This document shows positions 49,801-52,911 of a stretch of 64,000 nt of DNA, one piece after another. Made by a program: the position numbers and the translations under genes. Under the pieces are notes generated by a model, which made no database searches, was not told where the DNA came from, and saw only the letters and a list, made by a program, of their open reading frames with translations. Source of the stretch: Burkholderiales bacterium RIFOXYD12_FULL_59_19 (GTDB lineage: Bacteria; Pseudomonadota; Gammaproteobacteria; Burkholderiales; Burkholderiaceae_C); the NCBI GenBank assembly GCA_001771065.1, contig MESQ01000007.1:1-64000 (forward strand), read 5' to 3'. How positions within the stretch are numbered: position 1 is the first letter of the stretch; each line of letters starts with the position of its first letter.

Positions 49801-52800
49801 CACCCGAAGAGGTGATGCTGCACGCCCATTCGCACACTGGGCAGGCGCTACGCGAGTACGCCGCGCAAATGGGCGTGGTGCATGAGGTGCAAGACTTCGC
49901 TGGTGGGGCTGGGCTTGGTAGGGTCGACTTCAGTCGGCCAGGTCAACCAGGTCGACTGAAGTCGACCCTACAGGGGAAGTCCGTCGAAACGGCAGGGCAC
50001 AGGCGGGCTGTCGCAGCGACCGGCCATGGACACGACAACAGCATCCAGATCATCAACGCGCGCGAGCACAACCTCAAGTCCTTGAGCGTCAATATCCCGC
50101 GCGGCAAGTTCACCGTGGTCACCGGGGTCTCGGGCTCGGGCAAATCGACGCTGGCGTTCGACATCCTGTTCAACGAAGGCCAGCGCCGTTACCTGGAGTC
50201 GCTCAACGCCTACGCGCGTTCGATCGTGCAGCCGGCGGGTCGGCCCGAGGTGGACGCGGTGTATGGCATCCCTCCTACGGTGGCGATCGAGCAGCGCCTG
50301 AGCCGCGGCGGGCGCAAGTCGACGGTGGGCACCACCACTGAGGTCTGGCATTTTTTGCGGCTGTTGTTCGTCAAGCTCGGCACCCAGCATTGCATTCATG
50401 ACGGCACGCCGGTGGCGCCGCAAACGCCCGAAAAGATTGCGGCCCAGTTGCTGAAGAATTTCCGCGGCCAGCACATCGGCCTGCTGGCGCCGCTGGTGAT
50501 GAACCGCAAAGGTGTTTACACCGAGCTGGCCGATTGGGCGCGCCCACGCGGCTTCACCCATTTGCGGGTCGATGGCAACTTTTTGCCCACCACCAACTTC
50601 CCGCGCCTGGACCGCTTCAAGGAGCACACCATTGAGCTGCCGGTGTTCAGCCTCGATGTGTTGCCGGAGCAGGAAGCGCTGTTGCGTGACGCCCTGGCCC
50701 GGGCCTTGCAGCACGGCAAGGGCGTGGTGCATGTGTTGAGCGATCTGAATGGCTTGAGCGAGACCATGCTTTCCGGTGCCCCCACGGCGGGCATTGGGCG
50801 CTTGAGCGCGTTCTCCACCCTGCGCGCCTGCCCGGTCTGCAGCACCAGTTATGCCGAACTTGACCCGCGGCTGTTCAGTTACAACAGCAAACACGGCTGG
50901 TGTCCGGACTGCGTGGGCACCGGTGTCAAGCTCACACGTGAGCAGCGCAAGGTGTTTGACGACTCGGTGCGCGATGACGACAACAAGGGCCGTGAGCAGA
51001 CCTTTGCCGAGCCCGAGGTGGAAGACCTGGTTGATGCCGTGTGCCCGACCTGTCAGGGTACCCGCCTCAACGCGACGGCACGGGCGGTGCGGTTTGGGGC
51101 GAACCTGAATCAGCCTGAATCCCAGGCTGTGGCTGGTTTTCGTAGGGCCGACTTTAGTCGGCCAGGTGGACTGAAGTCCACCCTACAAGCATCACTCGAC
51201 GGCATCGCCATCACCGAACTGGCGCGCCTGAGCGTGAGCGACCTGCGCGGCTGGGTCGAAACAATGCAAGCCCTGGGTCGCCTGAGCGGGCGAGAGCGTG
51301 ACATTGCCCGCGACCTGATCCCGGAGATCAAGGGGCGTCTGGAATTTCTGGAGCAAGTGGGCCTGGGTTACCTGACGCTGGACCGGGGCGCGCCCACTTT
51401 GAGCGGCGGTGAGGCCCAGCGCATTCGGCTGGCGGCGCAACTGGGCAGCAATTTGCAGGGCGTGTGTTACGTGCTGGATGAGCCGACCATCGGCCTGCAC
51501 GCGCGTGACAACCAGATATTACTTGGCGCTTTGCAGACTTTGAGCGACCAGGGCAACACGCTGGTGGTGGTGGAACACGACGTGGACACCATTCGCCACG
51601 CCGACCACATCATCGACATTGGTCCCAGCGCCGGCAAACGCGGCGGGCGTTTGGTGGCCGAAGGGCGGGTAGCGGACATTCAGGGTGCGGCCGATTCACA
51701 GACCGGTCGCTATTTGCTGCACGCGATGAAACACCCGCTGAAACCGCGACGGATGGTGACGGACTGCGAAGAACAACACTGGATTACTGTCACCGGTGCC
51801 ACCTTGCATAACTTGCACAAGGTCACAGCCAGCATTCCCTTGAGCCGACTGGTCGCCGTCACCGGAGTCAGTGGCTCGGGCAAGTCCACTCTGGCGCGTG
51901 ACGTGTTGCTCGCCAACGTGTATGTCGCCGTGCAAAAACGCAGTACCAAGGCCGGGCGTGATGCGTTGGCAGCAGGTGAAACCATTGCCTGGGTTGGGTG
52001 CAACGATGTCACCGGCTTTGAGGCCGTGGACCGCGTGCTGGAAGTCGATCAAACCCCCATCGGTAAAACGCCGCGTTCATGCCCAGCCACCTACATCGGT
52101 TTCTGGGACACCATCCGCAAGCTTTTTGCTGACACGCTGGAAGCCAAGGCGCGAGGTTATGCCGCCAACCGCTTCAGCTTCAACATCGGCGAAGGTCGTT
52201 GCCCGGGTTGTGAAGGGCAGGGCATTCGCACCATCGCCATGAGTTTTCTGCCCGATGTGAAGGTGCTGTGCGAAACCTGCAAGGGTGCGCGCTTCAACCC
52301 TGAGACTCAGGCGGTGACCTGGCGCGGCAAAAACATCGGTGATGTGCTGCAAATGGAAGTGGACGAAGCGGTGGACTTTTTTGCCGCCATGCCGGTGATT
52401 TCCCATCCGCTGCAACTGCTGAAAGACGTGGGCCTGGGATACTTGACCCTGGGTCAGCCGTCACCCACCTTGAGTGGCGGCGAGGCGCAGCGCATCAAGC
52501 TGGTGACCGAACTCAGCAAGGTGCGGGACGACATCACCCGGCGCGGCCAGAAGGCACCGCACACGCTGTACGTGCTGGACGAGCCCACGGTGGGTTTGCA
52601 CATGGCCGATGTGGAAAAGCTCATCAAGGTGCTGCACCGTCTGGTCGATGGTGGTCACAGCGTGGTGGTGATCGAACACGATCTGGATGTGATTGCCGAG
52701 GCCGACTGGGTGCTGGACCTGGGGCCGGAGGGCGGTAATGCCGGTGGCCGCGTGGTGGCTGCGGGCTCGCCCGAAGTGGTGGTGGGCTTAGGCACGCACA

Positions 52801-52853: not shown

Positions 52854-52911
52854 GGAGGCACTTTCGGGTGCCTCCCTGGTCAAGGAGTCAGGCACTTAAG
52901 TGCCCGACTCC
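52854..52911. terminator. Two hairpins between convergent uvrA and rlmJ
   Basis: GGAGGCAC-TTTCGG-GTGCCTCC (52854-52875) is a perfect 8-bp stem 18 bp after the uvrA stop. GGAGTC-A-GGCACTT with AAGTGCC-C-GACTCC (52884-52911) is a near-perfect palindrome that overlaps the end of rlmJ. Together they probably end transcription from both sides; long T tracts are absent. Confidence 0.6.

Follow-up and report, generated by a model that had tools for sequence, protein, structure and literature searches.

Two in-frame palindromes within a tandem uvrA gene are REPINs of a dispersed family, probably moved by a transposase, in a Rhodoferax-like betaproteobacterium

Why would a single uvrA gene carry two related palindromes in frame? 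The window, a 64,000-nucleotide stretch of contig MESQ01000007.1 from Burkholderiales bacterium RIFOXYD12_FULL_59_19 (a Rhodoferax-like genome of 4.05 Mb in 97 contigs, 95.5% complete), contains a uvrA-like gene whose reading frame passes through both (Table 1). The original prediction described them as related mobile elements of 54 and 45 bp with GTAGGG...CCCTAC ends, resembling the palindromic elements of Rickettsia; coordinates, lengths and ends are as it gave them. Both are REPINs, that is, inverted pairs of 22-nt units, each consisting of a GTAG tag and a hairpin. REPINs were defined by Bertels and Rainey (2011; PMC3116915), who tied them to RAYTs (REP-associated tyrosine transposases) and noted compensatory changes.

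Two REP doublets in a tandem uvrA gene

Table 1. The uvrA-like gene and the parts of its two palindromes, in window coordinates.
Feature	Position	Strand	Basis
uvrA-like gene, two UvrA units in tandem fusion, 1990 aa	46863..52835	+	open frame; Pfam; solved UvrA alignments
Copy 1, REPIN of 54 bp, two inverted REPs, 10-nt spacer, in frame (RVDFSRPGQPGRLKSTL)	49918..49971	+	half-site match; whole-length fold
Left REP of copy 1, GTAG tag and hairpin	49918..49939	+	half-site match
9-bp tandem duplication CCAGGTCAA CCAGGTCGA in copy 1	49938..49955	+	sequence; absent from L087 copy
Right REP of copy 1	49950..49971	-	half-site match
Copy 2, REPIN of 45 bp, 1-nt spacer, two different intact hairpins, in frame (RADFSRPGGLKSTL)	51142..51186	+	half-site match; two-hairpin fold
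Left REP of copy 2, GTAG and GGCCGACTTTAGTCGGCC	51142..51163	+	half-site match; fold
Right REP of copy 2, GTAG and GGTGGACTTCAGTCCACC	51165..51186	-	half-site match; second-stem genome search

The uvrA-like frame has the Pfam domains UvrA_inter, UvrA_DNA-bind and ABC_tran and stays open through both palindromes, which encode the same peptide type, DFSRPG...LKST(L), as had been proposed. Copy 1 encodes residues 75-91 of the query; because these fall between residue 53, to which the C-terminal end of solved UvrA aligns, and residue 109, from which the N-terminal part aligns, copy 1 lies in the linker of the two UvrA units. Copy 2 occupies a loop shortly 3' of the CPTCQGTRLN stretch. A second UvrA of ordinary length is encoded elsewhere in the genome (G000:C35, a 1093-aa frame, 37% identical). 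A short inverted repeat, GGAGTCAGGCACTTAAGTGCCCGACTCC, possibly a terminator, lies 3' of uvrA at 52884-52911 of the window. Our literature search for tandem uvrA in betaproteobacteria, at the level of search results, found nothing.

How are the palindromes built? Four half-sites in the window match GTAGGGYCGACTTYAGTCGGCC at no more than three mismatches, and 100 shuffles gave none. The unit has the layout of a REP, a 5' GTAG or variant followed by a short hairpin: GTAG was unpaired ahead of a 7-bp stem in the folds of two 22-mers, and GTAG or GTGG is present in most of the half-sites listed. Folded as single-stranded DNA, copy 1 pairs along its whole length (-25.6 kcal/mol, z -11.7) and copy 2 forms two separate GTAG-tailed hairpins (-14.8 kcal/mol, z -5.2). 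The length of copy 1 is that of a 45-bp element plus the tandem duplication of CCAGGTCAA and CCAGGTCGA. Its arms had been called perfect, but its REPs differ from full complementarity by one mismatch in 22. Each hairpin of copy 2 is internally perfect. Searching the window at Rfam gathering thresholds gave no match.

A dispersed family and its probable transposase

Is the unit found beyond uvrA? Genome-wide, 119 half-sites match at no more than three mismatches, against 3 for a reversed control, and the second stem type accounts for 54 half-sites (control 0), a set that overlaps the 119. Arrangement was assessed in 51 stretches around listed half-sites and Y1_Tnp genes, plus the window; with a slightly different consensus these hold 141 half-sites in 89 clusters, at least that many being present in the genome. 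The sampled clusters comprise 41 inverted pairs, 37 singles, 4 of three or more units, 3 direct pairs and 4 weak cases, and the spacer of the inverted pairs is 1 nt in 18 of the 41 and 2 nt in 15. Many dispersed copies, largely in inverted doublets, are what a REPIN family presents. Many of the sampled pairs also combine two different stems. Since both its hairpins are intact and such pairs are frequent in the genome, copy 2, which had been thought to be decaying, is not a decayed palindrome.

REPs are crowded in places, with 10 clusters in 34 kb on contig C63 and 11 in 33 kb on C1 (L036-L037); on C63, three units (L083:18209-18734) lie 250 bp apart, as if tandemly duplicated with their flanks. 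Across genomes the family is patchy: 5 of 40, our own included, match at no more than two mismatches. A separate search gave 120 matches in the genome of L087 (a relative with both uvrA copies), 38 in G021, 18 in G003 and 0 in the genome of L089.

Could the palindromes have been born inside uvrA by local fold-back duplication, with no mobile element at all? Local duplication does occur, as in the 9-bp repeat of copy 1, and one hairpin family of Limnohabitans has nearly all its copies inside uvrA (9 of 10 across three genomes). The genome-wide dispersal of the 22-nt unit already contradicts a local origin, however, and REP pairs of like design surround a RAYT gene in a relative, and we regard fold-back as highly improbable.

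What, then, moves the REPIN family? The RAYT in question, in the genome of L087 (L173/L215; relative G040/G067), scores 156 bits against NF047646 (cut-off 80) and is flanked by five REP pairs, GTGGGGCAGGCTTCAGCCTGCC / GGATGACTGAAGTCATCCCCAC. Tag and CTTCAG centre are common to these REPs and the uvrA copies, as is the inner stem GACTTCAGTC in one unit; the whole stems are not, being partly different. Our own assembly contains other RAYT-like genes; the closest relatives of the L173 RAYT among them are only 26-27% identical, and no GTAGGG REP was seen beside any Y1_Tnp gene found there, although for one of these genes the contig ends about 450 bp away. The cognate RAYT may have been lost or may fall in a gap of the 95.5% complete assembly. 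Beside a RAYT-like gene on C54 of this assembly lies a unit of a second family, AATTGGGGTCAGATTCCAATT, which in L169 and L170 lies on either side of a RAYT gene (units near 1423 and 2253). The GTAGGG elements form a REPIN family that, we infer, is probably moved by a transposase.

Hosts read in frame and a forced peptide

How many genes have tolerated an element? We found 54 combinations of an element with an ORF of at least 190 aa, two of them the uvrA copies, and ran 30 ORFs besides uvrA against Pfam. Ten in-frame insertions in nine genes, some of them single REP units, lie inside one Pfam domain or between two; the hosts are hrpA, ygiQ, murF, putA, mdcG-citG, the genes of a DUF2126 protein, a 2-oxoacid dehydrogenase E2 and a metallo-hydrolase, and uvrA (twice). 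The ten leave aside C-terminal cases (MdcG-CitG at residue 647, an FAD oxidoreductase and a glycosyltransferase), and elements close to the N-terminus of an ORF are likewise outside the intragenic count. We attributed a nadA match with 3 mismatches to chance and left it out.

REPs are typically extragenic; at least 10 copies here are intragenic, a location already described for REPs (PMC3733652). As in Rickettsia palindromic elements, the protein continues past the insertion, judging by the hosts' frames, by solved PutA and MurF and by murF and ygiQ relatives: solved PutA is gapped where the element is encoded, and nothing in a solved Mur ligase fusion protein corresponds to the stretch in MurF. 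The likeness to Rickettsia that had been proposed holds for this in-frame behaviour, but not for anatomy, which is that of GTAG-tagged REP doublets. Intragenic CGTC-tagged repeats of R. conorii are RPE-4 and RPE-6 according to Di Nocera et al. (2013; PMC3733652), in whose listing CGTC repeats stand without transposase association; the tag here is GTAG or GTGG, not CGTC, and a RAYT is associated in a relative.

Why does one peptide type recur? The consensus 45-bp element has a single stop-free frame per strand (two of six), giving the peptides RVDFSRPGGLKSAL or RADFSPPGRLKSTL, whereas in shuffled 45-mers a mean of 3.85 of the six frames is open; the 46-bp form leaves two frames per strand free of stops. 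Among 18 real 45-bp pairs, ten are open in the two consensus frames alone and eight in a third as well. Because the consensus 45-bp form has one open frame per strand, the shared peptide type is forced rather than chosen, and surviving consensus copies would for this reason read ..DFS(R/P)PG.LKS.L. Selection for the peptide type was considered and, with two of six frames open against 3.85 after shuffling, is unneeded.

Might the inserted peptide still be useful to UvrA, for instance as a spacer of the fused units, and be kept by protein-level selection? A linker of some kind is present at site 1, the position of copy 1, in all aligned relatives. Moreover, between the window and L087, same-residue codons are identical at 25 of 26 positions within the elements and at 335 of 451 elsewhere (binomial P 0.0044); five other species pairs gave uncorrected P values of 0.016, 0.056, 0.12, 0.13 and 0.22, four of the six pairs thus lying above 0.05. 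Synonymous conservation, however, points to DNA-level over protein-level causes, the peptide follows from the only open frame of the consensus 45-bp form, and the same type occurs in unrelated proteins. In sister species, moreover, these sites encode different peptides derived from different repeats. A peptide retained for its usefulness to UvrA is improbable.

Filled, empty and differently filled sites

When did the elements enter uvrA, and where are they missing? Two sets of UvrA relatives were compared: the best 80 of 581 confirmed matches (81 genes with the window), and the best 30 loci (29 besides the window) from 60 genus genomes, 59 of which match some UvrA. In the first set the element occupies site 1 in the window, L087 and L088 and site 2, that of copy 2, in the window and L087; its absence from site 1 in 78 and from site 2 in 79 of these best 80 relatives contradicts the alternative that both segments are old parts of the protein present in distant orthologues. 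The second set adds L182, with the element at site 1 and one more pair in its locus, and L184, with the element at site 2, while L176 and L179 repeat L087 and L088 and are not extra; five species in all have elements at the UvrA sites. Site 2 is empty in L088, L089 and L181. Ten murF loci include three with the element (G000, G067, G050), one with another repeat (G021), four with none (G072, G051, G074, G004) and two without a usable frame, and of nine ygiQ loci two have the element (G000, G021) and seven lack it, the loop being shortest in G003. The mobility that had been suggested, along with searches for further dyads and for empty sites, is therefore well supported by the dispersed multi-copy family, the in-frame copies in other genes and the insert-free relatives.

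A tree built on 17 UvrA cores places the window with L089 and L181 (86/75), joined next by L088 (91/87). Because these three species are all without copy 2, presence at site 2 appears to have changed at least twice, or the stretch to have recombined; with its only moderate support, the tree favours neither gain nor loss. Copy 1 had been judged recent, but the window and L087, 87% identical in the region, agree in their unusual arms at both sites, as does L184 at site 2. Since the arm variants are common to the window and L087, the uvrA insertions are not recent, and near-perfect arms are no clock.

Do the hairpins act in uvrA DNA or mRNA, through pausing, mRNA stability or altered repair activity (the last a speculation of Di Nocera et al. 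2013, PMC3733652), so that uvr genes keep them? Both copies fold strongly, several families recur in uvrA, and copy 1 of L088 has a paired T-to-G / A-to-C difference in its two arms that keeps the palindrome. Such paired changes can, however, also come from hairpin-templated correction. Copies are found, too, in murF, putA, ygiQ, hrpA, E2 and mdcG-citG, and presence differs between close species; a role of the hairpins in uvrA is thus unlikely.

What occupies the sites in other species? The second family (AATTGGGGTCAGATTCCAATT) is present at the two UvrA sites in L089, L092, L094, L100, L109, L182 and L184, and in L181 at a UvrA site as judged by the peptide; it has 7 to 48 matches in each of 12 genomes (control 0), palindromic copies counting on both strands. 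The same family was seen at L077:3590. CGTC-tagged palindromes occupy UvrA sites in L096, L101, L185 and L192, CCCTCACCC-type palindromes do so in L094, L104 and L177, and a further hairpin family is found there as well. At the ygiQ site G067 has a stretch reading RPEPVEG..STSSARTD, which we take to be a known repeat type, and the murF site of G021 holds a CGTC-type palindrome. From their palindromic sequence and resemblance, the CGTC, CCCTCACCC and RPEPVEG inserts are putative mobile repeats; genome-wide copy numbers are available for the GTAGGG and AATTGGGG families and for the loop of Limnohabitans.

Six repeat patterns had 146 matches in the 53 kb of variable sites of the 81 UvrA genes and 1 in the 399 kb outside, a contrast that measures confinement and not discovery, the patterns having been drawn from these inserts and palindromes possibly counting on both strands. 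By our count, at least one of the six types is present in 34 of the 81 genes. Two different sites of one gene share repeat DNA in 24 of the 81 (14 inverted), against 3-9 genes direct and 0 inverted in ten draws of random segments from the same genes; in our own reading, the direct matches of this control reflect paralogous ABC domains.

Three repeat types have become protein in G021 (L184, L267), with the AATTGGGG family at UvrA site 1, the GTAGGG family at site 2 and the CGTC-type palindrome in the murF linker. The hairpin family in uvrA of Limnohabitans and kin (L137, L149, L155, L157) has a fixed loop, CCTCATACGGCGGGGGTACGCCAAAATCG (for example at L137:3638 and 5420 and L149:1733 and 1894), and long, copy-specific complementary arms, and lies at several sites of uvrA itself; either one arm serves to correct the other, or the target is inverted and duplicated by the element.

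How would a palindrome become part of UvrA? We consider it very probable that a dispersed REPIN family was copied by a RAYT and that tolerated in-frame copies survived, those in uvrA being old and probably near-neutral passengers. The observed part of this account comprises anatomy, copy number, the REP-flanked transposase in a relative, in-frame hosts and insert-free relatives. Hairpin intermediates would have been copied by the RAYT into many places; copies in essential domains or out of frame would have been lost, and survivors would be those that fell into a flexible linker or loop, were read in a phase free of stops and had a net length divisible by three. The uvrA insertions are old and common to relatives, and their palindromy would be upheld by arm-to-arm correction or constraint. 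Against the account stand the lack of a GTAGGG REP beside any Y1_Tnp gene found in our own assembly, the only partial likeness of the L173 REPs to the uvrA stems, the patchiness of the family and the fact that no insertion event was seen. Fewer synonymous changes inside the elements than outside (window against L087, P 0.004) argue against plain neutral passengers.

A further reading, which we offer tentatively and think rather doubtful, is that a few linkers and loops in UvrA, and likewise in MurF and YgiQ, serve as common docking sites for several unrelated families of mobile palindromes across Comamonadaceae, with UvrA collecting more of them than neutral tolerance would account for. Two RAYT-linked REP families, CGTC-tagged repeats and others would be taken up, kept and exchanged in frame, and the Limnohabitans hairpin family, almost restricted to uvrA, would spread from site to site.

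How much of this is new? Intragenic REPs, uvrA doublets included, have been known since 2013: in its passages on such insertions, the study of Di Nocera et al. (PMC3733652) describes GTAG and CGTC REPs in frame in genes, many of them repair genes; its examples include two REP dimers in uvrA of Thioalkalivibrio and, in Opitutus terrae, a double insertion in each of the two uvrA genes. Our family agrees with GTAG REPs and REPINs in its tag, short perfect hairpin, inverted doublets, roughly one hundred copies, in-frame intragenic copies that include uvrA (PMC3733652) and, in a relative, a RAYT flanked by REPs with partly other stems. It differs in being betaproteobacterial, in spacers of mostly 1-2 nt, in many in-frame hosts per genome and in an own assembly in which no cognate RAYT was seen. 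It differs also in that sister species fill the same sites with other repeats, for which those passages of PMC3733652 offer one case, different REPs at about one site in recB of two Xanthomonas species. Our search for REPs in Rhodoferax surfaced, at the level of search results, only small-RNA work in Bordetella, and no description of the Rhodoferax family, its many in-frame hosts or multi-family sites was found in literature consulted mostly at that level. What is new here is that sister species hold different repeats at the same UvrA, MurF and YgiQ sites.

In a betaproteobacterium, then, even such basic enzymes as MurF and UvrA have gained protein sequence from mobile non-coding palindromes. 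With close species whose sites are filled, empty or differently filled, the enlargement of proteins by palindromic repeats becomes testable, as does the question, left unanswered in 2013, of why uvr genes recur as hosts.
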